From Alphaproteobacteria bacterium (GTDB lineage: Bacteria; Pseudomonadota; Alphaproteobacteria; SHVR01), in contig SHVR01000021.1 of NCBI GenBank assembly GCA_009694185.1, positions 1-40,674 on the forward strand: a DNA stretch of 40,674 bases, read 5' to 3'. The notes under the pieces were generated by a model. It was not told the DNA's origin, made no database searches, and saw only the letters and a program-made list of their open reading frames with translations. Numbering within the stretch: position 1 is the stretch's first letter; every line of letters starts with the position of its first letter. Positions 5,724-39,274 of the stretch are shown here, piece after piece. The position numbers and the translations under genes are program-made.

Positions 5724-6038
5724 TTAGGCGGCCTTCTTCTTCGAGACGGCGCCGGTGATGATGCCGAGGATGTCGGATTCCTTCATGATGATCATGTCCT
5801 CGCCGTCGATCTTGACCTCGGTGCCCGACCATTTGCCGAACAGCACCCGGTCGCCGGCCTTGACGTCGAGTGGCGTCAGCACGCCCTTCTCGTTGCGCAC
5901 GCCCTGGCCGGCGGCAACGATTTCGCCTTCCATCGGCTTTTCCTTGGCGGTGTCGGGGATGATGATCCCGCCGGACGACTTGGTTTCTTCCTCGACACGG
6001 CGGACGAGTACACGGTCGTGCAATGGCCTGAAGCTCAT
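5724..6038 (-). CDS. groES: Co-chaperonin GroES (Hsp10)
   Basis: A 104-residue GroES. It begins [14 protein letters not shown], the diagnostic GroES N-terminus. The mobile-loop region ([18 protein letters not shown]) contacts GroEL, and [10 protein letters not shown] lies near the C-terminal beta region. The frame is open for 36 more codons upstream, but those do not resemble GroES. The ATG at 6038 has a perfect AGGAGG at 6045-6050, so I take the shorter form. It is the first gene of the operon with groEL. Heat-shock regulation is likely through HrcA at the CIRCE element upstream, and possibly sigma-32. Confidence 0.97.
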
Positions 6039-6102
6039 TCGGTCCCTCCTGGGGTCACTCGGTTTGCTGCTGTACTCCGGGGAAGCACCCGGGTTGACAC
6101 AG

Positions 6103-6131
6103 GATTTAGGCACTCGCCGCACCACCGTCAA
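6103..6131 (-). promoter_or_regulatory. Candidate groES promoter (-35 TTGACG, -10 TAAATC)
   Basis: Read on the minus strand, TTGACG (6131-6126) and TAAATC (6108-6103) are separated by exactly 17 bases. With the flanking bases the boxes read CTTGAC and CCTAAAT, which also suits an alphaproteobacterial sigma-32 promoter. Predicted transcription starts near 6096, giving a leader of roughly 58 bases before groES. The CIRCE operator lies just upstream of the -35, not over or downstream of the promoter as is usual, so a second promoter further upstream is possible. Confidence 0.5.
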
Positions 6132-6139
6132 GGGTTTTT

Positions 6140-6166
6140 TTGGCACTCAGGTAAACCGAGTGCTAG
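6140..6166. promoter_or_regulatory. CIRCE operator (HrcA binding site)
   Basis: TTGGCACTC, nine spacer bases and GAGTGCTAG match the CIRCE consensus (TTAGCACTC-N9-GAGTGCTAA) at all but one base in each arm. The spacer is exactly nine. It stands about 100 bases upstream of the groES ATG. HrcA binds this repeat and represses groESL until heat shock; the hrcA gene itself is not in the window. Confidence 0.95.
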
Positions 6167-6319
6167 CAAAATTGCCGCCAGCCCCGCACCGGGTTGGCAG
6201 CAGTCGCCCCGTCATGCTGTTAACATATTGATAAGAAAGTTCTTTTATAAATATTCCCGTTGCCCGACCGAGGTCGTTGACGCAATATCGGGTAGCGGAT
6301 AGTGCGGAGGGTTGCCGGC

Positions 6320-6583
6320 ATGGGCGATCTGGAATTAGAGCTTCGGGGCTATCGGCTGACGCTGGCCGAGATCACCTACTGGGTTCCGGACCACCCGCGT
6401 CTGCTCCAGACCTTCACCTGGCAGACCCTCGATTTGGCACCCCGGTTTCCCATCCTGCACCGCTTCCTCGACCATTGGCGGCGCGAGATCGAGGCCAAGG
6501 CCCAGTCGGTTAGGGTCGCGACCGCCCCCATGGTTGGCCGGGGCGAGCTCCGCCACGCCCGCCATCTCGCCCTGCTGCAATAG
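6320..6583 (+). CDS. usg: Usg family protein
   Basis: An 88-residue cytoplasmic protein of the Usg family (PF06233), small proteins found mainly in alphaproteobacteria and of unknown function. The recognisable core is LELRGYRLTLAEITYW, PDHP, LLQTFTWQ, DLAPRFP and the tail SVRVA. The ATG at 6320 has GGAGG at 6306-6310. A GTG at 6302 in the same frame would overlap that ribosome site and is less likely. The upstream divergent region (6167-6300) is unusually AT-rich around 6220-6256 and holds a TATAAA, but I could not pair it with a -35 at normal spacing. The gene converges on the LivG-like ATPase. Confidence 0.88.
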   Translation: MGDLELELRGYRLTLAEITYWVPDHPRLLQTFTWQTLDLAPRFPILHRFLDHWRREIEAKAQSVRVATAPMVGRGELRHARHLALLQ

Positions 6584-23373: not shown

Positions 23374-26300
23374 TCAAGCCGGCCTTGGTCCGCCGACTGG
23401 TGTCTCCGGCGCCTTTGGATGACCGCCCGCCCAGCGGCGGAAGCGATCGAGATAGAGGTAGACCACCGGCGTCGTATAGAGGGTCAGCACCTGGCTCACC
23501 AGCAACCCACCCACGATCGAGATGCCGAGAGGGCGCCGGAACTCCGATCCTTCGCCGACGCCGATGGCGAGCGGCAAGGCGCCGAGCATGGCCGCGAGCG
23601 TGGTCATCAGGATCGGGCGGAAACGCAGCAGGCAGGCCTGGTAGATCGCATCGCGGGGGCTTAGACCCTGGTTCCGCTCGGCCGCGAGGGCGAAGTCGAT
23701 CATCAGGATCGCGTTCTTCTTCACGATGCCGATCAAGAGGATCACCCCGATCAGCGCGATGATGGTGAACTCCAGCCCAGCGGCCATCAGCGCCAGGACG
23801 GCGCCGACACCGGCCGGCGGCAGGGTCGACAAGATCGTGAGGGGATGGACATAGCTCTCATAGAGTATGCCGAGCACGATATAGACCGCGACCAGGGCGG
23901 CCAGGATGAGCAGCGGCTGGGACGCGACCGATGCCTCGAACGCTCCCGCCGTGCCTTGCAAGCGGCCATGGACCGTGGCGGGCACGCCCAGATTGTTCAT
24001 CGCATCGCCGATCGCCTGGATGGCATCGCCGAGCGTCCTGCCCTCGGCCAGACCGAAAGAGATCGTGCTGGCGACGAACGATCCCTGGTGACTGATCGAA
24101 ACCGGTGTGGTGCCCGGGTTGAACTGGCTGAACGCGGCGAGCGGAACCATCGTTCCCGCCGCCGTGCTGATGGCCGCTCCCGTCGACGGGCCGGTCCGGC
24201 TGGTGGCCCCGGTGCGGTTGACGCGCTGGTTGCGCACATCCTGGTCCACGGGGTCGATCGTCCGTCGGTTGGCTGCCGGGCTGGCGGCCGATGCCAGTGC
24301 CCCCGTCGCCTGGGTGCCGCCCAGCGGCCGGGCCTGGGCACTGACATGAATGTCCTTCAGGATATCGGGATTCTGCCAATATTCCGGCGCCACCTCCATG
24401 ACGACGCTGTACTGGTTCAGGGGATTGTAGATGGTCGTGACTTGCCGTTGGCCGAAAGCATCGTAGAGGGTATCGCTGATCTGGCGCGCCGAGAGCCCGA
24501 GCCTGGCCGCGGTATCCCAATCGATGGCGACGGAAATTTCGAGCCCCTTCTGGTCCTGGTCGGAATTGACATCGGTGAGGATCGGTGAGGTTTGCAAAAG
24601 CTCGGTGATCTTCGGCGTCCAGACGTGGATGTCGGCGATACTGTCGGCTTGGATTGTGAATTGATACTCGGCGGCGCTCTGGCGGCCGCCGATACGGATA
24701 TCTTGATAGGATTGGATATAGAGCGTCGCGCCGGACACCTGGGCGAGCGCGCGGCGCAGGCGCCGGATGACCTCCTCGGCCGACACCCCGCGCTCGGCGA
24801 ACGGCTTCAGCGACATGAACACGAACCCCGAATTGGTCTGGTAGCCGCCGGTGAAGCCGACCACATTTTCCATTGCCGGGTCCTGGTTCAAGATGGTGAT
24901 GAACTGCTCCAGTTTCTGGCGCATGAGCTGGAAGGAGGTACTCTGATCGCCGCGAAGCGTGCCGAACATGCGGCCGGTGTCCTGTTGGGGGAAGAATCCC
25001 TTCGAAATAACGGCGAATAGATAGATGTTCAAGCCGATGGCGGTCATGAAGGCGAGCATGATGGTGCGCGGATTGTCGAGCGCCCAGAGGAGCGAGCGGT
25101 CATAGATCCAAGTCAGGCCCGAGAACCATCGCTCCGATGCCCGGTACAGCCGGCCGCGCTCGCCGGCCGGCCGGGGCCTGAGGAAGCGGGCGCAGATCAT
25201 CGGTGTCGTGGTGAGCGAGACGAGTAGCGACACGATGACCGCGACCGAGAGTGTGACGGCAAACTCGCGGAACAGCCGCCCGACGATGCCGCCCATCAGC
25301 AGGATCGGAATGAACACCGCGATCAACGACACGCTCATCGAAAGGACGGTGAAGCTCACCTCGCGAGCGCCGATGAGCGTGGCGCGAAGGCGCGACATGC
25401 CCGATTCGATGTGCCGCTGGATGTTTTCCAGGACGACGATGGCGTCGTCGACCACGAATCCCGTCGCGATGGTGAGCGCCATCAAGGACAAATTGTTCAA
25501 GCTGTAACCGAGCAGATACATGACGCCAAAGGTACCGATCAGCGACACCGGCACGGCGATGGTCGGCACCAGGGCGGCGCGCGGGTCGCGCAGGAAGACG
25601 AAAACCACCACCACCACCAGCCCGGTTGCCAGCAAAAGCGCATGCTCCGCTTCCCGGAGCGAGGTGCGAATCGTCACCGACCGGTCGGACGCCACGACGA
25701 TGTCGATATCTTCCGGGATTGAGGCCTTGAGGACCGGCATCAGCGCGCGGACCCGGTCGACGGTCTCGATGATGTTGGCGCCGGGCTGGCGATGCAGAAT
25801 GACCAGGATCGCGCGCTTGCCATTGTGGATGCCGGCGTTGCGCAGGTTTTCGATCGAATCGACCACCTCGGCCACGTCCGAAAGGCGCACCGCCGCGCCG
25901 TTCCGGTAGGCGATCACCAGGTTTTGATAGTCCAGGGCGTTGCGCATCTGGTCGTTGGTGTAGAGCTGGAATCGCCGTGCCCCCTCGTCGATGGCGCCCT
26001 TGGGGCTGCGCGCATTGGCGGCGACGAGCCCGGCCCGCACATCGGCCAAGGCGATGCCCTGCTTGAAGAGGGCTCGGGGATTGAGCTCGACCCTGACCGC
26101 CGGCAGAGAGCTACCGCCCAGCGTCACCTGGCCGATGCCGTCCACTTGCGAGAGTTTCTGCTCCAGGATGGTCGTCGCCACATCATAGACCTGTCCCGCG
26201 CTGCGGGTTTCCGAGGTCAAGGTCAACAGCATGACGGGCGATTCGGCGGGATTGATCTTGCGATAGGTGGGGTTGCGCCGGAGGTTGGTCGGCAGATCGG

Positions 26301-26649
26301 CGCGCGCCGCGTTGATTGCGGCCTGCACGTCGCGGGCGGCCCCGTCGATGCGGCGGTTGAGCCCGAACTGGAGCGTGATCGAGGTCAATCCGATGCGGCT
26401 CGACGAGGTCATCTCGGTGACGTCCGCGATCTGTCCAAGATGGCGTTCGAGCGGCGTGGCCACGCTGGTCGCCATCACTTCAGGGCTTGCGCCGGGTATC
26501 TGGGCCGTCACTTGGATGGTCGGATAGTCGACCTGGGGCAGTGGCGCCACCGGCAGTTGGAAGAAGGCGATGATGCCGGCGAGAACGACGGCGACGGTCA
26601 AAAGCGTCGTGGCGACCGGCCGGTTTACGAAGGCGGCGGCGAAGTTCAT
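23374..26649 (-). CDS. mdtC: RND multidrug efflux permease, MdtC-type
   Basis: A 1091-residue inner-membrane proton-driven pump of the AcrB/MdtC group. It begins [17 protein letters not shown], has the TM4 proton-relay Asp pair in [15 protein letters not shown], and the second-half motif [14 protein letters not shown]. The family is near 1025 residues. The excess comes from an insertion at about 771-833 (DNA 24150-24335), a Ser/Thr/Ala/Arg-rich stretch placed in the second periplasmic half just before VPLAAFSQF. It is probably a flexible loop. The ATG overlaps the stop of the MdtB-type gene (ATGA), so the two subunits are translationally coupled, as expected for a heteromeric MdtBC pump. Confidence 0.96.
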
Positions 26650-29600
26650 GGCCCGCTGCCCCGCTCGGTGGCGGGCGCGAGGGCACCCCCCCCAAGGCGC
26701 CGCGCCAGCCGGTCGAACGCTAGATAGATGACCGGCGTGGTAAAGAGGGTCAGCAATTGGCTGACGATCAGGCCACCGACGATCGCAACGCCGAGCGGGT
26801 GGCGCAATTCCGACCCGGTCCCGGTGCCGAGCATCAGCGGTAACGCGCCGAGGAGCGCCGACATCGTCGTCATGAGGATCGGACGAAATCGCAAGAGACA
26901 GGCCTGGTGGATGGCGCGCCCGGGCGTCTCGCCCTCGTTGCGTTCGGCGTCGAGGGCGAAGTCGATCATCATGATCGCGTTCTTCTTCACGATGCCGATC
27001 AACAGGATGATGCCGATGATGGCGACGATGTCGAGATCGTGGCCGGCCAGCATCAAGGCGAGCAGCGCCCCGATGCCCGCCGATGGCAGCGTCGAAAGAA
27101 TCGTGACCGGGTGAACGAAGCTCTCATAGAGGATGCCAAGGACAATGTAGACGGCCACGATGGCCGCCAGAATCAACAATAGCTGGCTCCTCAGCGTGCC
27201 CTGAAAGGCCAGTGAGGCGCCCTGAAAGTTCGCGATGATGCCGGCCGGCAGGTCGATCGATTCCTGTACCCGGCGAATCGCGGCAACGCCCTCGCCGAGC
27301 GAGATACCCGGCGCCAGGTTGAACGACACCGTGGTGGCGGGAAATTGACCCAGATGGTTGATCTGGAGTGGCGCCGACCGTTCGCTGATCCGGGCGATGG
27401 CGGCGAGCGGCACTTGCCGGCCGCCGCCGAGCGCCGATGGTAGATACACCGCATCAAGTGCATCGAGCGCCGTTTGCAGGGAAGGCTCCGCTTCCAGAAT
27501 GACCCGGTATTGATTGGTCTGGGTGAAAATGGTCGAGATGATGCGCTGGCCGAAAGCGTCGTAGAGCGCATTGTTGACGGTGGCAAGCGTGATGCCGAAG
27601 CGGGCGGCGGCATCGCGGTCGATGGCAATATAGACTGCGGCACCTTGGTCCTGGAGATCGCTCGCCACCTCGGCGAGCTCGGGTAGCAGGCGGAGCCGCT
27701 CGACGAGCCGGGGAACCCAGGCCGACAGCAGGTCGGGATCGGCGGTCTGGAGGGCAAAACGATATTGGGTGCGGCCCGTGGTGGCGTCGATGGTCAGATC
27801 CTGCACCGGTTGCGTGTAGAGCTGGATGCCGGGTACGTCCAAAGCCGCCGTCTGAAGTCGCCTGGCGATCGTGGCGGCATCGGCGCTCCGTTGCTCTTTG
27901 GGTGTCAGATTGATCAACAGGCGGCCATTGTTGAGCGTGGCGTTGGTGCCGTCGACACCGATGAAGGACGACAGGCTGGCAACATCCGGATCGGCCAGAA
28001 TTTTCGCGGCCATCGCCTGTTGGCGCTCGGCCATCGCCGCGAACGAGATCGACTGCGGCGCCTCGGTCACGGCCTGGATCAGGCCGGTGTCCTGCACCGG
28101 AAAGAAACCCTTGGGAATGGCAAGATAGAGATAACCGGTCATGGCGACCGTGCCGAGCGCCACCCAGAGCGTCGCCGATTGATGGTCGAGAACCCACACC
28201 AGCGCCGCGTCATAGCGGGCGAGCAGGGCATCGAACCAACGCCTGGCGACGCGGGCAAATGGCGACTCGTCGGCCGCATCGGCGTGGCGAATGAGACGCG
28301 CGCACATCATCGGCACCAGCGTCAAGGACACCACCGCCGAGATCAAAATGGAGATCGCCAGCGTGATGGCGAACTCGCGGAACAAGCGGCCGACCACATC
28401 GCCCATGAAGAGCAGCGGGATCAGCACCGCCACCAGCGACACGGTCAGCGAGAGGACGGTAAATCCGATCTGCTTGGCACCCTTGAGGGCCGCCTCCAAC
28501 GGTCGCATGCCGCGTTCCATATGGCGCATGATGTTCTCGATCATGACGATGGCGTCGTCGACGACGAAGCCTGTCGAGATGGTCAGCGCCATGAGCGAGA
28601 GATTGTTCAGGCTGAAACCCAGCCAATACATCATGCCGAACGTACCGACGAGCGAGAGCGGCACGCACACCCCGGAAATCAGCGTGGCACGGACATTGCG
28701 GAGGAATAGGAAAATCACCAGCACCACGAGCACCACGGCGAGGCACAATTCGAACTGCACGTCCCGGACCGAGGCGCGGATCGTGGTGGTGCGGTCGGTC
28801 AACAGCGTCACCTCGACGGCCGGCGGCAGCGAGGCGCCGAGGCGCGGCAGCAGCGCCTTGATCCCGTCGGCCACCTCGATGACGTTGGCCCCGGGCTGGC
28901 GCTGGACGTTGAGGATGACGGCCGGGGTCAGGTTGATCCAGGCGCCGAGCTTGGTGTTTTCGGCGCCATCGACGGCCTCGGCCACATCGGCAAGGCGAAC
29001 CGGGGCACCGCCGCGATAGGCGATCACCAGGTCGCGATAGGCCTCGGCACTCTGGAGCTGGTCGGTGGCGTTGATGGCGTAGGCGCGCATCGGCCCGTCC
29101 AGGCTGCCCTTGGGCGCGTTGACGTTGGCATTGGCGATGGTCGTGCGCAGGTCGTCGATGTTGAGACCGTAGGCGGCAAGCGCGCGCAGATTGACCTGAA
29201 TGCGGATGGCCGGCCGTTGGCCACCCGCGATGCTGACCAGGCCGACGCCGGGAAGCTGCGAAATCTTCTGCGCCACGCGGGTATCCGCCAGGTCTTGAAT
29301 CTGCGGCAGCGTGAGCGTCTTCGATGTGAGCGCCAGCGTGAGAATGGGCGCGTCGGCCGGGTTGATCTTGGCGTAGATCGGTGGCGCGGGCAGGTCGCTC
29401 GGCAACAGACTGCCGGCGGCATTGATCGCCGCCTGTACCTCCTGCTCGGCGGCGTCGAGGGCGATCGACAGGCTGAACTGGAGCGTGATGACCGAGGCGC
29501 CACCGGAACTGACCGACGACATTTGCACCAGGCTCGGCATCTGGCCGAGTTGGCGTTCGAGCGGCGCCGTGACCAGGGAGGTCATCACGTCCGGGCTGGC

Positions 29601-29759
29601 ACCGGGATAAAATGTGCGCACCTGGATGGTCGGATAGTCGACCTGGGGCAATGCCGACACCGCCAGAAACCGGTAGGCGATGGCGCCGACCAGCATGATG
29701 GCGGCCATCAAGAGGGTGGTGGCGACAGGGCGGTGAATGAACGGGCTTGAGAGGTTCAT
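26646..29759 (-). CDS. mdtB: RND multidrug efflux permease, MdtB-type
   Basis: A 1037-residue RND pump subunit of normal length. It opens with [19 protein letters not shown], carries the TM4 relay in [15 protein letters not shown], and has [22 protein letters not shown], a hallmark of the MdtB/MdtC branch, in the second half. In the E. coli family the two permeases form a mixed trimer (two MdtB, one MdtC) that exports bile salts, novobiocin and similar compounds. The gene order adaptor-MdtB-MdtC here matches that system. Both ends overlap the neighbours by 4 bases. It is clearly a paralogue of the gene at 23374 and is diverged enough to exclude a recent duplication. Confidence 0.96.
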
Positions 29760-30991
29760 CGCTCTCGCGTCGGCCGTCCGTCGCCGCCGCGTTGGCCCGG
29801 CAGCATGATCTTGGCGCCATCGCGCAACCGGTCGACCCCGTCGACGACGACACGATCGCCGGGGGCAAGGCCCGAGAGGATGGCGACCCGCTGGCCATCC
29901 TGGACGCCGAGTTCAACCTTCTGGACGCCCACGATGTTGTCGGCCTTGACCAGATAGACATAGGTCCCGGGCGCGCCGCGCTGCACGGCGGCGACCGGGA
30001 TAACCGTTTGTGCGCTCAGCATGTCCACGACGATCTCAAGATTGACGAACTGGTTGGGAAACAGCGCCTCGTCCGCATTATCGAATTGTGCCTTCAGCTT
30101 GACCGTGCCGGTCGCCACATCCATCTGGTTGTCGACCGTGGTCAACCAGCCGGCCGCGAGCTTGGCCTTGCGACCGCGGTCGAAGGCCGTCACCGGGAGA
30201 ACCGAACCCGACTGGAGACGTTTGATGATGAGTGGCAGATTGTCCTCCGGCACCGAGAACAGTACCGTGATCGGCCGTACCTGGGTGATGACGACGATGC
30301 CGCCAGGGTCATTGGTCTGCACATAGTTGCCGGCATCCACGAGGCGGAGGCCCACGCGGCCGCCCATCGGCGCCAGGATGCGGCAATAAGTCAGGTTGAG
30401 CGCCGCGTTGTTGACCAGTGCCTGATCGGTCTTGACGATCCCCTGGTATTGCTGGACCAGCGCCAATTGGGTATCGAGCTGTTGGCGGGCGATCGAGTTC
30501 TGCTCGGCGAGCGTGCGATAGCGCGCCAGGTCAACCTCGGCGTTACGCAAGAGGGCCATGTCGCGGGCCAGTTGGCCTTGGGCCTGTTCGAGAGCGTGTT
30601 GAAACGGGCGCGGATCGATCTCGGCCAAGAGATCGCCCTTGGCCACCACCTGGCCCTCCTCGAAGGCAATCCGCATGAGGGGGCCCGCGACCTGGGTCTT
30701 GACGGTGACGATGGCAAACGGCGTCACCGTTCCCAAGGCGTTGAGGGTGCGCGGTACGTCTTCCCTCAGCGCCGGTGCGACGACGACCGGCACCGGCTGG
30801 CCGGCGCCGAAACGGCCGCGCGGCGCTTCCGTTTGCGGGCGGGTCTGCGCCCACCAAACAACCGCGCCGGCCGTGCCCAGGATGACGGCGAGGACCAGCA
30901 ACTGGATCCAGGCGCGCCGACGGGGCCGCCGGGTCTCGCGCGACAGGGTGGGCGGCGCTCGCTCGTCGGTTCTCGGGTTCTGGTCGTTCAT
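29756..30991 (-). CDS. mdtA: RND efflux periplasmic adaptor (MdtA/HlyD family)
   Basis: A 411-residue membrane fusion protein linking the RND pump to the outer membrane duct. One N-terminal anchor helix ([20 protein letters not shown]) is followed by a lipoyl half ([21 protein letters not shown]), the alpha-hairpin and the second lipoyl half ([10 protein letters not shown]). Beta-barrel and membrane-proximal domains ending in [17 protein letters not shown] come last. The frame is open 38 codons upstream, but the ATG at 30991 is the best family-length start; its only GGAG touches the ATG, so initiation may be weak. It is the first gene of the efflux operon and divergent from the VOC gene, with no local regulator gene. 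Confidence 0.94.
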
Positions 30992-31091
30992 CTCCGGCTG
31001 GACTGACCGGCTCCTTTGTGGCCAATCGGGCGGCAATCGGCGCGGAGTGCGAACACCAAGGTACCCATTCGAGCGCCAAACAGCAATCTTG

Positions 31092-31111
31092 AACAGGATC
31101 AACACCCTGTT
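31092..31111. promoter_or_regulatory. Small inverted repeat between the divergent mdtA and VOC genes
   Basis: AACAGG (31092-31097) and CCTGTT (31106-31111) are exact complements around 8 bases. The site lies centrally in the 162-base divergent region, near AT-rich -10-like sequences (TAAACT at 31119, TATAT just after). An operator is possible, but a 6-bp arm can arise by chance, and no regulator gene is next door. Confidence 0.25.
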
Positions 31112-32338: not shown

Positions 32339-32869
32339 TTACGCGGACCGGGTGCAGGCCTCGATGATGCGCTCGATCGCATTGTCGGCAATGGCGGCCA
32401 ATTCGCCCGCCGTGCGGTTCTGAATCGGGTGCGGCACATAGACGATGGCTGGATCGAAGCCGAGCGACTTGGCCTGGGCCCTGGCCGCCGGCTCGAATTC
32501 GACTGTCGCCACCGCAAGGCCCGGGATACCGCGTTTATCGAGGGTCGCAATGTCATGCAAACTGCACGACGTGCAGGAGCCTCAATCGGCCAGGCCTTCA
32601 ACGACAATGTCGCAGCGCTCGATCAGCCTTTGCAGCACGTCCTCGGGCGCGGGCTTGGTGTGGGTGGGCTTCTGGAAGCGGAGCACGTTCAAGCCCCGCT
32701 CGTTCAGCCGCCGCTCCACCTGATCGAGAAATTCGTGGCTACGTTCCTTGGATATCGACAACAGGCCGATGGTGGCGCCTTCCAGCCGTTCGGGCGGTGC
32801 CAGGCGCGGCCGCATGCCGGGGGCGAGTTCCGCCGTCGGGTCGCGCATCAAATAGGGCTCGTTCCGCAT
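32339..32869 (-). CDS. UGSC-motif selenoprotein, Sec96 encoded by in-frame TGA
   Basis: The gene is 177 codons if the TGA at 32584-32582 is read as selenocysteine. Residues 1-95 (ending CDIVVEGLAD) are followed by U96-G-S-C99-T-S-C102, then LHDIATLDKRGIPGLAVA in the same frame, PHPIQNRT, and a TAA at 32339. The downstream 80 codons cannot be an independent gene: no ATG, no ribosome site and no domain boundary is seen. The motif and flanking sequence match the UGSC family, named for Sec/Cys-Gly-Ser-Cys, whose biochemical role is not established; a thiol/selenol redox function is inferred. The ATG at 32869 has AGGAGGAG. It lies 10 bases after the thioredoxin-like fusion gene. A standard gene caller would report two fragments (32582-32869 and about 32339-32560). 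Confidence 0.93.
32552..32570 (-). promoter_or_regulatory. Candidate bacterial SECIS hairpin
   Basis: Counting the U of UGA as 1, bases 15-21 (GUCGUGC) pair with 27-33 (GCAUGAC), seven pairs with one G-U. The apical loop is AGUUU, with G at 23 and U at 24. In E. coli fdhF the SelB-contacting loop bases are G23 and U24, so spacing and identity agree. The loop starts 18 bases after the UGA, inside the usual bacterial range. A competing 6-bp hairpin (32562-32576) would place a GU loop too close to the UGA. Confidence 0.7.
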
Positions 32870-32879
32870 GGACTCCTCC

Positions 32880-34304
32880 TCATAGTGCGATCTCCTTGGT
32901 CACGGGGCGGACGGCGGCCGGGTTTCGCTGGCCGGTCCATCCTCCGATGATGGCGGACATGAGGCCGCCGCGCCCGCCCGCGCGAACCAGCAAGAACGTC
33001 TCGGCGTGGAACTTGTCGATCGTGTCCTCGGCGCGCTCGGGCGCAACACCCACGGCGACACCGCCCAGACCCGTCACCATGTCGCGGCCGGGGCGGCGAA
33101 GTGCCGCCTTGAGCGCCAGCTCGATATCGGTCCGGCCCCAACCGGCCGCTCGAAATATCTCGTAATGATCGGGTGAGAGCACCAGGACGGCGCCGCCCCA
33201 GCCAGCGACCTTGGGATGGGTCACACCCCATAGCCCCATGGCGAGCGAGCGTGCCAAATCATCGGGCGTGCGCGCCGCCTGGTCGGCGAAGCCGGTCACG
33301 CCATCGGCGTGGAAGAGGGTGACGGTGTTGCTCCCGGGCGGAAAGCCGCGCGCCACCGCCAAGGGCGTCCAACCGGGGTCGGTTTCGTCCTCGGCAAAGC
33401 AGAAGCTGTATTTGCCGGGATTGCCCAGAACGGCGCGGTCGATCTCGCCCGGTATGCCGCCGCCCACATTGCGCACGATGAGTTGGAGTGCCCGGCCGAT
33501 GCTGGCATTGGCGCGGTTGCCTTGGCCGAGCGCGTTGCCGCCCCAGTTCATGCCGATGCGCTTGGCGATCGGGCCGTTGACGATGATGAGCGGTCCCGAG
33601 AAATAGAGCGTGCAGAGGAGGCCGTGCATGGCGAATTCCGGCATCAGCGCCGCCTCGACAGCGGCGATGACCACCGGCAGATAATCCGGCCGGCAGCCCG
33701 CCATGACCGCGTTGATCGCCGCCTTCTCGACGGTGAGCGGTTGCAGGTTGGGCGGAATGAGACCGATCACCTCATCCGGCTTCCGCCTGGTACCACCCAG
33801 CATGCGGGCAATCCTGAGGTCGGTCGGTGGGACGATCGGCAGGCCATCGGTCCAGCCCCGGTCATAGGCGACCTCGATCGGGTCGTCGTCATCCGCCACC
33901 TCGATCGGTCTGGCCGCCAAGTGCAGGTCACCGAAGCGGAGGGCCAGGCGTTCCGGCATACCGGGCTCCACAGTCTTGGAGCCGCAGCCCGGCTGGAACG
34001 AAGTGAGGCCCGGCCCGAGACCGGCCGCGCCCGAGACTCGTTCCCATTCGGCCCGGTCCCAGCCGACCGTGCGCGCAACTTCCTCTCCGTCTTCGAGGCG
34101 AATGAGCGTCGGCACGATTTCGACCCCGAGCCGCCAGGAGCGCTCGAGCATCCGGTCGTCGAGGGCGCCACCCAGGCTCTCGGGGAAGGCCGGGTCGTCC
34201 TGGCAATAGAGGGCGAGAGGCGCCCGGGCCTTGAGCTGGCCGAGGACCGGTTCCACCAGCAAGCAGGTGGGGCAGTCGCGTTTGACGACGGCGATCAGTT
34301 CCAT
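32880..34304 (-). CDS. Thioredoxin-like domain fused to an uncharacterised UGSC-associated domain
   Basis: A 474-residue cytoplasmic protein. Residues 1 to about 95 are thioredoxin-like: an early strand, the C11-P-T-C14 redox motif, and a cis-Pro at 65 in VEIVPTLIRL. The remaining 370 or so residues have no fold I recognise. Marked segments are DRGWTDGLPIVPPT, NAVMAGCRPDYLPVV, NWGGNALGQGNRANASIGRA and LVLSPDHYEIF. An isolated Cys (GCGS, about 107) joins the parts. Start is ATG 34304 (a GTG at 34307 is one codon earlier), only 10 bases after the aminotransferase stop, and its own stop is 10 bases before the selenoprotein. It could reduce or be reduced by the Sec/Cys centre of that protein, but this is inference. 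Confidence 0.82.
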   Translation of the reverse strand: MELIAVVKRDCPTCLLVEPVLGQLKARAPLALYCQDDPAFPESLGGALDDRMLERSWRLGVEIVPTLIRLEDGEEVARTVGWDRAEWERVSGAAGLGPGLTSFQPGCGSKTVEPGMPERLALRFGDLHLAARPIEVADDDDPIEVAYDRGWTDGLPIVPPTDLRIARMLGGTRRKPDEVIGLIPPNLQPLTVEKAAINAVMAGCRPDYLPVVIAAVEAALMPEFAMHGLLCTLYFSGPLIIVNGPIAKRIGMNWGGNALGQGNRANASIGRALQLIVRNVGGGIPGEIDRAVLGNPGKYSFCFAEDETDPGWTPLAVARGFPPGSNTVTLFHADGVTGFADQAARTPDDLARSLAMGLWGVTHPKVAGWGGAVLVLSPDHYEIFRAAGWGRTDIELALKAALRRPGRDMVTGLGGVAVGVAPERAEDTIDKFHAETFLLVRAGGRGGLMSAIIGGWTGQRNPAAVRPVTKEIAL

Positions 34305-34314
34305 CACATGGCGT

Positions 34315-35694
34315 CTATATCTCGCCGTCGGCCCTCAGCATGCGCACCGCCTCGCGGAAGGCATGGATGGTGTGGGCGAGGTCCGCCTCGCTGTGGGTTG
34401 CCGAGACGATGCCGCCCGGCCGGCTCGGTATGTCGACGCCATTGACGATCAAGGCGAGGTGCAATTTGTGGACCAGCGCCTGGGGGGCGTTTTTCAGCGT
34501 GTCATAGGGGATCGTGAGCGGATCGAAGGTCTCGGGCTTGACGTCGGCGCGCCGGTCCTGGTTGAGATAGATGTGAAATCCCGAGAAGGTGCCATAGGCG
34601 GCCCAATGCATTTTCTCCTCGGCCAGCATCCGGTTGAGGCCAGCGCGGAGCCGCTCGCCATAATCATTGGCGCGCGCGCAAGCGTCGCTCGTGCCGATGA
34701 TTTCCAGGGTCTTGGCGCCCGCCGCCGCCGAAACCGGATTGGCGTTGAAGGTGCCCTGATGCTGGACCTTCTCCCGGTTGGCTGTCCGGCTCACCTCGAA
34801 GTCGAGGGCATCGAGAATGGCCTTACGTCCGACAAGGGCGCCGCCCGGCAGGCCGCCCGCCAGAATCTTGGCGTGGCAAGAGAGGTCCGGAACGATCCCG
34901 TAATGGGCTTGGGCACCGCCGGGTGAGACGCGGAATCCGGTCACCACCTCGTCGAAGATCAACACCACGCCATGCTTGGCGGTCAATTCGCGCAATCCCG
35001 CCACATAGTCGGCGGTGATCGGCACCAAGCCGAAGGAAGCGCCGGTCGGCTCCAGGATCAGGCCGGCGATGTCCTTGTCGCTTGCGAGCAGCACCCGGGC
35101 GGCCTCCAGATCGCCCGGCGGCAACAGCAGCACGCCGTCCGCCACACCCGCCAACACGCCGGGCGCCGGCGTGCCGTCGAAATGATTGGTGACCCCCGAC
35201 GCCATATGGTCGTGCCAGCCATGGAAGTGGGTCTTGAGACGCACCACCTTGGTGCGGCCGGTGAAGGCGCGCGCGAGCCGCAGCGCCATCAGCGTCGCCT
35301 CGGTACCGGAGGAGGTGAAGCGCAGCCGCTCGGCCGCGGGCACCAGCTTCTTCACCCATTGTGCCCAGGCCACCTCGCGCGAGTGGTTGGCGCCGAAATG
35401 CGTGCCTTGGGCCAGCGCCGCCTGGATTTCGGCCAGCACTTCGGGCCGGTTATGGCCGAGCAGCAGGGCGCCGTGGCCGCCGTAATAATCCACATAGTCG
35501 TTGCCATCCACGTCCCGCTTGTGGGCGCCCTTGGCCTCGCTGACATAGATGCCATAGGGCAGCAGATAGCGGCTGTCATGGGTGATGCCGCTCGGGAAGC
35601 ACTCGGCGGCCTCGCGGGCGAGCTTGGCGGAGCCGGGCGTCTTTTCCCGATAAGCGGCCGTAATACGGGAATTGGTCGGGCCGGTGTCGGGCAT
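34315..35694 (-). CDS. Class III PLP aminotransferase, HemL-like (glutamate-1-semialdehyde mutase group)
   Basis: A 459-residue PLP enzyme of the class III aminotransferase fold. SSGTEATLMALRLAR (near 128-142) binds cofactor phosphate, Asp248 in LIFDEVVTGFR contacts the PLP nitrogen, and Lys276 in SCHAKILAGGLPGG is the Schiff-base Lys. It resembles GSAM, but many such homologues are catabolic transaminases, and here it lies beside redox and catabolic genes rather than tetrapyrrole genes. A biosynthetic hemL role is therefore doubtful. GGAGG precedes the ATG. It is the first gene of the operon with the thioredoxin fusion and the selenoprotein, and divergent from the gamma-glutamyltransferase gene. 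Confidence 0.9.
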   Translation of the reverse strand: MPDTGPTNSRITAAYREKTPGSAKLAREAAECFPSGITHDSRYLLPYGIYVSEAKGAHKRDVDGNDYVDYYGGHGALLLGHNRPEVLAEIQAALAQGTHFGANHSREVAWAQWVKKLVPAAERLRFTSSGTEATLMALRLARAFTGRTKVVRLKTHFHGWHDHMASGVTNHFDGTPAPGVLAGVADGVLLLPPGDLEAARVLLASDKDIAGLILEPTGASFGLVPITADYVAGLRELTAKHGVVLIFDEVVTGFRVSPGGAQAHYGIVPDLSCHAKILAGGLPGGALVGRKAILDALDFEVSRTANREKVQHQGTFNANPVSAAAGAKTLEIIGTSDACARANDYGERLRAGLNRMLAEEKMHWAAYGTFSGFHIYLNQDRRADVKPETFDPLTIPYDTLKNAPQALVHKLHLALIVNGVDIPSRPGGIVSATHSEADLAHTIHAFREAVRMLRADGEI

Positions 35695-37918: not shown

Positions 37919-39274
37919 TCAGCGCCCCGCGCCCGCCGCCTTCAGCATGCGGTCGACCATGTCGCCGGCATGGCCGACATAATTGGCGGGGTCGGTGAGG
38001 CGCACCAGCTCGGTGTCGGCGAGCTTGTCGCGAATGGCCGGTGTGGCGCGCAGCGCCGCCAAGAGACTGATCCGCTCGCTGCCGGCCTTGCGGCAGGCGT
38101 CATAGACGATGTCGTGGGCGACACCCCGGCCGAGGGTAGGGGCGAGGCCCATCATCACCGCCTCGGCGACGATCAGGCCCGAGGTGATGTCGAGGTTGCG
38201 GCGCATGCGCTCGGTATCGACCTCGAGGCCGGCCAGCATGAAGCGCGCCTGGCCGAGGGCGCCCGAGGCGAGCACGAAGGCTTCTGGCACGACGATCCAC
38301 TCCACATGCCAGGGGCCGGTCGCGCGCTCGAAGTCGGCCACCATGGCGTCCATGGCCAAGCCGGCATGCTGGCGCACCAGCTTGCCGCAGGCGAGGATCA
38401 GCTCGCAGGAGATGGGATTGCGCTTCTGCGGCATGGTGCTGCTGCCGCCCCGGCCCTTGACGAACGGCTCGAAGGCTTCGCCCGCCTCGCTTGCCATCAT
38501 CAGCATGATGTCGGTCGCGATCTTGGAAAGCGTGCCCGTGACCAGGCCGAGCAGGTTGAGTGCTTCCGCGATGCCGTCGCGCGCCACATGCCAGGGCATG
38601 GCGGGCACGCCCAGGCCGAGCTCGGCCATCAGCGCGTCGCTCACCTTGAGGCCGTTGGGATGCAAGGAGGCGAGGGTGCCGGCGGCACCCGCGAACTGAC
38701 CCAGCATGACGCGCGGCCGCATCTGGCCGAGACGCTCGATATGCCGGTCGATGGAAAACAGCCAGACCGCCGCCTTGTAGCCGAAGGTGATGGGGAGCGC
38801 GTGCTGCAAATGGGTGCGCCCGGGCATCACCGCGTCCCGGTAACGCGTGGCGAGATCGGCGAGGATACCGGCAAGCGCCACCAGGTCGGCCTCGACCAGT
38901 TGGAAGGCCTCGCGCATCTGGAGGACGGTTGCCGTATCCCAGATGTCCTGGGTGGTCGCCCCCCAATGGGCATATTGGCCGGCATTGCCCTCGCAGACCC
39001 GGGCGAGCTGGTGGACGAGCGGCAGCACGGCATAGCCCACAATCTCGGTCTCGGCCTTCATGGCCGGGATATCGAGGCGCTCGAATTGGGCTTGCCGCGT
39101 GATCTCGGCGGCTGCCGCCTCCGGGATGAGGCCGAGGCGCGCTTGGACGCGGGCGAGTGCCGCCTCCACGTCGAGCATCTTCTGAAGGTAATTCTCGTCC
39201 GAGAAGACGCCGCGCATGGCGGCCGTGCCGAACAGGTCCCGAAAGAGGGCCGAGTCGATGATCGAGGACGGCAT
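37919..39274 (-). CDS. Fumarase/aspartase-superfamily lyase, PcaB-like (3-carboxy-muconate cycloisomerase type)
   Basis: A 451-residue member of the argininosuccinate lyase/fumarase superfamily. The signature GSSTMPQKRNP (about residue 277-287) is the mobile catalytic loop with the acid/base Ser. TTQDIWDTATVLQ and GRTHLQHALPITFGYK are the other two conserved regions. Overall it resembles 3-carboxy-cis,cis-muconate cycloisomerase (protocatechuate pathway) more than adenylosuccinate lyase, but no pca genes are adjacent. The gene is followed upstream by a crotonase-fold gene on the same strand (24 bases apart), so the two are probably co-transcribed and may act on the same compound. Confidence 0.88.
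   Translation of the reverse strand: MPSSIIDSALFRDLFGTAAMRGVFSDENYLQKMLDVEAALARVQARLGLIPEAAAAEITRQAQFERLDIPAMKAETEIVGYAVLPLVHQLARVCEGNAGQYAHWGATTQDIWDTATVLQMREAFQLVEADLVALAGILADLATRYRDAVMPGRTHLQHALPITFGYKAAVWLFSIDRHIERLGQMRPRVMLGQFAGAAGTLASLHPNGLKVSDALMAELGLGVPAMPWHVARDGIAEALNLLGLVTGTLSKIATDIMLMMASEAGEAFEPFVKGRGGSSTMPQKRNPISCELILACGKLVRQHAGLAMDAMVADFERATGPWHVEWIVVPEAFVLASGALGQARFMLAGLEVDTERMRRNLDITSGLIVAEAVMMGLAPTLGRGVAHDIVYDACRKAGSERISLLAALRATPAIRDKLADTELVRLTDPANYVGHAGDMVDRMLKAAGAGR

Follow-up and report, generated by a model that had tools for sequence, protein, structure and literature searches.

An in-frame TGA at the UGSC motif of an alphaproteobacterial gene: a predicted selenocysteine and a thioredoxin-domain partner protein

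When two open reading frames lie in the same phase and are parted by a single TGA, it has to be asked whether this triplet ends a gene or is read as selenocysteine (Sec) and, in the second case, what the complete protein would do. The locus that raises this question is found in contig SHVR01000021.1 of the Alphaproteobacteria assembly GCA_009694185.1 (GTDB lineage SHVR01), of which a stretch of 40,674 nucleotides, hereafter the window, was analyzed; on its minus strand the initial annotation had proposed a hidden selenoprotein of the UGSC family, with Sec at residue 96. The family itself is already known (it is treated in PMC2398784, PMC13188914 and PMC9312934), and according to PMC2398784 few selenoprotein families are as abundant in the Global Ocean Sampling (GOS) aquatic metagenomes; a 2026 review still places it with the selenoproteins of largely uncharacterized function. 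In the open-licence literature, no title or abstract opening was found that names a function or a partner for UGSC. From the analyses presented here we consider it rather probable that the TGA is read through, most likely as Sec96, and that the UGSC protein is the catalytic subunit of a thioredoxin-driven, two-gene selenol reductase, formed together with the product of the adjacent gene, which carries a domain that we call UPD. What is new here is the near-constant UPD partner, its predicted supply of thioredoxin, and a possible likeness of UGSC to GrdB.

The TGA as a codon of the UGSC gene

The gene, its putative Sec codon and the associated signals are located as follows:
32339..32869, minus strand: UGSC-family gene, predicted selenoprotein, 176 codons (TAA stop included) with an in-frame TGA at codon 96
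32582..32584, minus strand: the in-frame TGA, predicted Sec96, which opens the U-G-S-C motif; Cys is found here in 6 proteins and 48 loci
32875..32880, minus strand: ribosome-binding site AGGAGG, 5 nt 5' of the ATG at 32869
32552..32570, minus strand: SECIS-like (selenocysteine insertion sequence-like) hairpin, 8 bp stem and 3-nt loop GUU, the loop starting 19 nt past the TGA

The frame described by the initial annotation is confirmed: from 32869 to 32339 the minus strand holds, in a single phase, 95 codons, the TGA (32584..32582), 80 further codons and a TAA, and the joined product reads U-G-S-C-T-S-C at residues 96-102, with the TGA exactly at the first position of the motif. The joined protein reaches 132.8 bits, full-length, against NF041046, the UGSC (seleno)protein family (curated cut-off 125), and 138.5 bits against PF24696 (curated cut-off 25), whereas the first half by itself obtains 46 and 54 bits, respectively; given that the joined protein scores far above the first half, family sequence runs on through the TGA, as had been claimed. 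The first base of the AGGAGG is also the final base of the upstream gene's TGA stop, and the statement that a ribosome site exists solely before the first part also held, since no AGGAGG-like site was found before the four in-frame start codons past the TGA (TTG 104, GTG 120, GTG 145 and TTG 157). A scan of the window with Rfam gave a single tRNA and nothing else.

The gene was compared with 96 genomes of the same class, one of which, G000, is the window's own. PF24696 has 26 matches in 12 of these genomes, and G000 accounts for four, each on a contig of its own; every match contains one internal stop, always TGA, and the 26 triplets fall in one alignment column, where six full-length database proteins have Cys. 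The position is not due to chance, because 26 of 26 matches hold exactly one stop, a TGA, at one residue. Residues U/C96, G97, C99 and F125 are invariant in the 32 aligned sequences (26 Sec and 6 Cys), and the third cysteine of the motif, residue 102, varies among them. Among 60 matches in the protein database, 51 stop one residue before the Sec site, six are the full-length CGSC forms, and three have other ends. The search for homologues with Cys at residue 96, put forward with the initial annotation as a check, gave positive results also at genome level: a Cys-only pattern found 48 loci across 84,980 species genomes, in taxa that include Burkholderiales, Methylobacterium, Bradyrhizobium, Bacteroidota, Gammaproteobacteria, Actinomycetota and haloarchaea. 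A sequencing error at 32582-32584 may still affect this single copy, but the three other UGSC genes of G000 have TGA at the same codon.

The distribution of the family follows that of the Sec decoding genes. selA and selB were found above their cut-offs in one common set of 14 of the 96 genomes; the 12 genomes with UGSC comprise 11 of these 14, plus G000, and none of the remaining 81 genomes, which lack selA and selB, contains UGSC (Fisher p = 5e-12).

The hairpin that follows the TGA, GUCGUGCA-GUU-UGCAUGAC (-17.8 kcal/mol), conforms to the bacterial SECIS (bSECIS) limits given in the legend of Fig. 2 of PMC13188914, i.e. a loop of 3-9 nt, an upper stem of 4-16 bp, a G within the first two loop positions, a spacing of 16-37 nt and an energy of at most -7.5 kcal/mol. 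Compared with synonymous-codon shuffles, whose codon table was taken from the Sec genes only, the mean z-score was -1.78 in the 26 Sec genes and -0.07 in 16 of the 48 Cys loci. The hairpin cells are paired in 89.4% of cases versus 80.7% in shuffles, with 0 of 500 shuffles as high, in a test that favours the hairpin because the helix was itself derived by folding these sequences one by one; the covariation score was 0.214 versus 0.104 (again 0 of 500 as high), and sliding the pairing partners gave 47.6% paired at most. In the loop, 23 of the 26 Sec genes retain G23 and the same number retain U24, and G23 appears in 2 of 16 Cys genes. Several results speak against this hairpin as a Sec signal: the published limits, passed by 25 of 26 Sec genes (L022 fails), are also passed by 13 of 48 Cys genes and for this reason are not specific; the z-score is above zero in three Sec genes (L021, L022 and L042); the counts of doubly substituted pairs (3) and of additional pair types (7) were each matched by 86 of 500 shuffles; and the RNAalifold consensus is shallow, with 3 other pairs, and does not predict it.

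Taken together, a selenoprotein with a predicted Sec96 is supported as the best reading of the gene, as the initial annotation had it, because of the profile score, the Cys homologues, the hairpin and the TGA shared by all 26 genes, and because in the 95 genomes besides G000 UGSC is confined to those with selA and selB.

The partner gene and the gene neighbourhood

Directly upstream of UGSC, in the same orientation, there is a gene that was missed by the initial annotation:
32880..34307, minus strand: partner gene, encoding a thioredoxin domain joined to an as yet unnamed domain (labelled UPD by us); its TGA stop touches the UGSC ribosome site
34026..34307, minus strand: the partner's thioredoxin domain (residues 1-94), with CPTC at 12-15
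32883..33917, minus strand: UPD domain, residues 131-475; C205, E306 and H381, among others, are invariant in 52 sequences

The first domain has both the CxxC and a thioredoxin fold. UPD, with 345 residues, has no match in Pfam or NCBIfam, and represents a sizeable annotation blind spot because at least 7993 database relatives exist (7993 of 8000 scored candidates) and no Pfam or NCBIfam model covers them. Sequence searches of the PDB with UGSC and UPD, with single sequences and with profiles, gained nothing, and the PDB structure matches of the whole partner protein were nearly all to its thioredoxin domain.

In a survey limited to no more than 18 first-look candidates from each genome, the UPD gene was found in exactly the 12 of 96 genomes that hold UGSC. 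UPD adjoins UGSC or lies near it in 72 of 74 cases (24 of 26 Sec genes and all 48 Cys genes, with two at 1.5 kb); alignments A2 and A3 include 38 and 37 of the 48 Cys loci, and the distance comparison used the 38 pairs present in both. Because of this proximity the two proteins are predicted to act jointly, as a single thioredoxin-driven enzyme. A partner with an equal genome distribution, often with the thioredoxin domain built in, makes the function of UGSC testable, and the Cys forms of named microbes from soil and salt lakes add to this; the pairing suggests the two proteins to produce and the electron donor to begin with.

The expectation that standard annotation would split a gene of this kind was borne out on Paracoccus ferrooxidans plasmid pFER4 (5959-7616), where a TGA form of UGSC was deposited as two hypothetical proteins; UPD follows directly, and selB lies about 3.3 kb further on. 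Plasmid p2-T1 of Acidovorax sp. T1 (5998-6534) also carries a TGA form followed by UPD, the UGSC annotation in the gene table shown covering only the part before the TGA; this plasmid is typed as conjugative IncP, and transposase genes are near UGSC.

Further upstream in the window lies one more gene of probable common transcription:
34315..35694, minus strand: class-III aminotransferase gene, its end 7 nt upstream of the partner gene; probable shared operon, not constant in relatives

The neighbour survey covered 94 proteins of the Sec loci (93 of 115 listed and one added) and 104 of 209 of the Cys loci, with reading frames called by our own script, so that genes may be missed; the neighbourhoods are not independent, given that several are from Methylobacterium or Gammaproteobacteria and that L094 and L141 are the same place. 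A class-III aminotransferase occurs near UGSC in the window and in L077, a dicarboxylate symporter in L073, L085 and L092, and a beta-keto acid cleavage enzyme (BKACE) in L071; other neighbours are CoA-transferases, acyl-CoA dehydrogenases and amidohydrolases, and in the plasmid records neighbours are annotated as phosphosulfolactate synthase or as members of the isocitrate lyase/phosphoenolpyruvate mutase family. These genes point to a putative catabolism of small acids with no fixed substrate; the neighbourhood did not lead to a substrate, the commonest neighbour families having 5 or 6 members among the first 25 families listed.

A lyase of the PcaB/adenylosuccinate lyase family is encoded in the window (37922-39274, minus strand) and obtains 438 bits against XcbD of coenzyme M synthesis, under the cut-off of that model; a 38% relative adjoins UGSC in Natrinema, and phosphosulfolactate synthase-like genes are near UGSC in L144, L141, L110 and L114. 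The XcbD-like lyase and the phosphosulfolactate synthase-like neighbours may hint at sulfonated substrates. The window also has three large same-strand genes at 23374-31105 (minus strand), probably an operon for efflux of the resistance-nodulation-division (RND) type, the first of which (29756-31105) encodes an RND adaptor of the MdtA/MuxA type.

The proposed enzyme and its alternatives

In the mechanism that we propose, SelB would read the hairpin and Sec would be inserted at codon 96. In GrdB and PrdB the selenols attack the substrates; in a similar manner, Sec96 would attack a small organic-acid or amino-acid substrate at the interface of UGSC and UPD, Cys99 would resolve the intermediate as a selenosulfide, and this would be reduced by the CxxC thioredoxin domain or, in partners that lack the fusion, by a free-standing thioredoxin, with thioredoxin reductase as the feeding enzyme. 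The result would be a two-subunit reductase that works through a selenol (or a thiol) and has paralogues for different substrates. In a profile comparison with GrdB/PrdB-like proteins, UGSC gave 80.5% and 84.9%, with Sec96 and Cys99 aligned on UxxC, and at the level of profiles the UGSC domain may be akin to the portion of these reductases that bears Sec. A wider proposal is more tentative and, in our judgement, has a smaller chance of being right: UGSC and UPD could constitute an undescribed two-subunit selenoenzyme, a thioredoxin-powered counterpart of the anaerobic glycine and proline reductases, spread across bacteria and archaea both as Sec and as Cys forms, with up to five paralogues per genome that break down different small organic acids.

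Several observations weigh against these proposals. Our own hhalign run of UGSC against GrdB-like sequences gave only 61.2% and 31.7% unmasked, and the second value fell to 19.8% once Cys was written as Ser and to 4.5% once it was masked (no control exceeded 0.4%); Pfam GRDB has no match to the UGSC protein, PF24696 being the sole match at E <= 0.001, and the structure search with UGSC returns common folds (flavodoxin, receiver and TIR-like) together with others. Regarding the partner, Sec genes L051 and L056 have no UPD in the stretch examined, 3 of 34 UPD matches (G064:C161, G079:C136 and G079:C76) are on contigs without a UGSC match, UPD is the sole constant neighbour and reductase genes are near a minority of loci only, and the sequence and structure searches gave UPD, the predicted second subunit, neither a fold nor a function.

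An unlikely alternative, which nevertheless survives best, accepts Sec96 and makes UGSC/UPD a thiol-selenol enzyme of antioxidant defence or repair (acting on peroxide, disulfide or sulfoxide), or of metal or sulfur handling, instead of a catabolic reductase. The thioredoxin domain fused to the partner and the trxA/trxB genes within the same cluster would suit such a role, and according to PMC2398784 most of the selenoprotein families analyzed there are thiol oxidoreductase homologues or have a thioredoxin-like fold; in L050 an AhpD-related (seleno)protein (NF041238; 10582-11376, minus strand) lies in the UGSC neighbourhood, with selA about 5 kb from UGSC. It is less easily reconciled with the many catabolic neighbours (CoA-transferases, amidohydrolases, acyl-CoA dehydrogenases, dicarboxylate symporters and BKACE), with the GrdB-like profile match, or with the predicted fold of UGSC, a flavodoxin-like alpha/beta layer in which U stands at the start of the helix after strand 3.

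A pseudogene, with the TGA as a nonsense mutation in an organism that has lost Sec decoding, is very improbable. Its argument is the search for the sel genes named in the initial annotation, which succeeded in part in G000, a metagenome-assembled genome that is 77.2% complete and consists of 78 contigs: selD is present (300.4 bits), and selA, selB above its cut-off (best 93 bits) and tRNA-Sec (selC) were not found in this assembly, the last neither by the scoring of candidates (150 of 498 scored) nor by pattern; this also counts against the Sec96 reading. The selD gene (G000:C75:12795-13706, locus L014) lies inside a 763-aa open frame and may be a fusion, Ndh-SelD fusions having been reported in PMC2398784; the selU profile had no match in G000. 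Nine tRNA-Sec candidates of G000 were all under the gathering score of 47, the best (45.4 bits) being a tRNA-Ser by ARAGORN, and the eight that were run in this program (the ninth has no locus) are all ordinary tRNAs. The pattern matches 9 of the 14 selA/selB genomes and 0 of the 82 others, all nine being tRNA-Sec by ARAGORN, and because it detects just 9 of 14 its silence in G000 is weak evidence; a looser pattern, with a gap minimum that was too long, matched 11 of 96 genomes, 3 among the 14, and was not used. Among the relatives, 13 of 14 genomes have selA and selB no more than 1 kb apart, and six of the nine tRNA-Sec genes (G013, G026, G052, G055, G064 and G065) are within 0.3 kb of selB, the other three being on other contigs. 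Because these genes cluster, one missing stretch could remove selA, selB and tRNA-Sec together, and their lack in G000 is probably a matter of assembly incompleteness. A pseudogene also disagrees with the TGA at the same codon in the four UGSC copies of G000, with the match of the frames on both sides, with the presence of selD and with the kept hairpin.

Reassignment of the TGA to a different amino acid (Trp or Cys), or ordinary readthrough of it, would equally leave the frame open on both sides; this reading has hardly any credit here, given that TGA terminates 16 of the 26 window genes judged likely, the partner gene among them, and therefore is an ordinary stop that has not been reassigned, that the six full-length proteins have Cys at the site, and that UGSC, G000 left out, is restricted to selA/selB genomes. 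Two separate functional proteins, as the Paracoccus ferrooxidans entry was deposited, can practically be dismissed, since no ribosome site was found past the TGA, the conserved motif spans it, and the Cys forms are single proteins.

Comparison with known selenoproteins and reductases

The gene agrees with the 'UGSC-containing protein' of the GOS selenoproteome in having a predicted Sec at the UGSC motif, a UxxC arrangement and few Cys forms, the GOS table listing 255 Sec versus 21 Cys forms (PMC2398784). The same article reports a fusion of UGSC to a domain named 'Unknown_1', which may be UPD. It also proposes a thioredoxin fold for the UGSC domain; the matches listed in our structure search are flavodoxin, receiver, TIR-like and other folds. 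As for thioredoxin itself, the partner differs in that its thioredoxin domain is fused to the 345-residue domain that has no Pfam or NCBIfam match.

GRDB-like relatives are confined to Sec-decoding genomes (8 of 96). Of the 16 GRDB-like genes L125-L140, which are probably the 'PrdB' of the GOS papers, 14 carry TGA in a U-P-x-C/D motif, and L135 and L137 carry Cys. Like GrdB/PrdB (PF07355), UGSC places its predicted Sec in a U-x-x-C that a G-I-P strand follows. Grd and Prd have pyruvoyl-containing partner subunits; in the neighbourhoods surveyed UGSC pairs with the thioredoxin-UPD protein, and UPD has no likeness to the GRDB-like set (0.1%).
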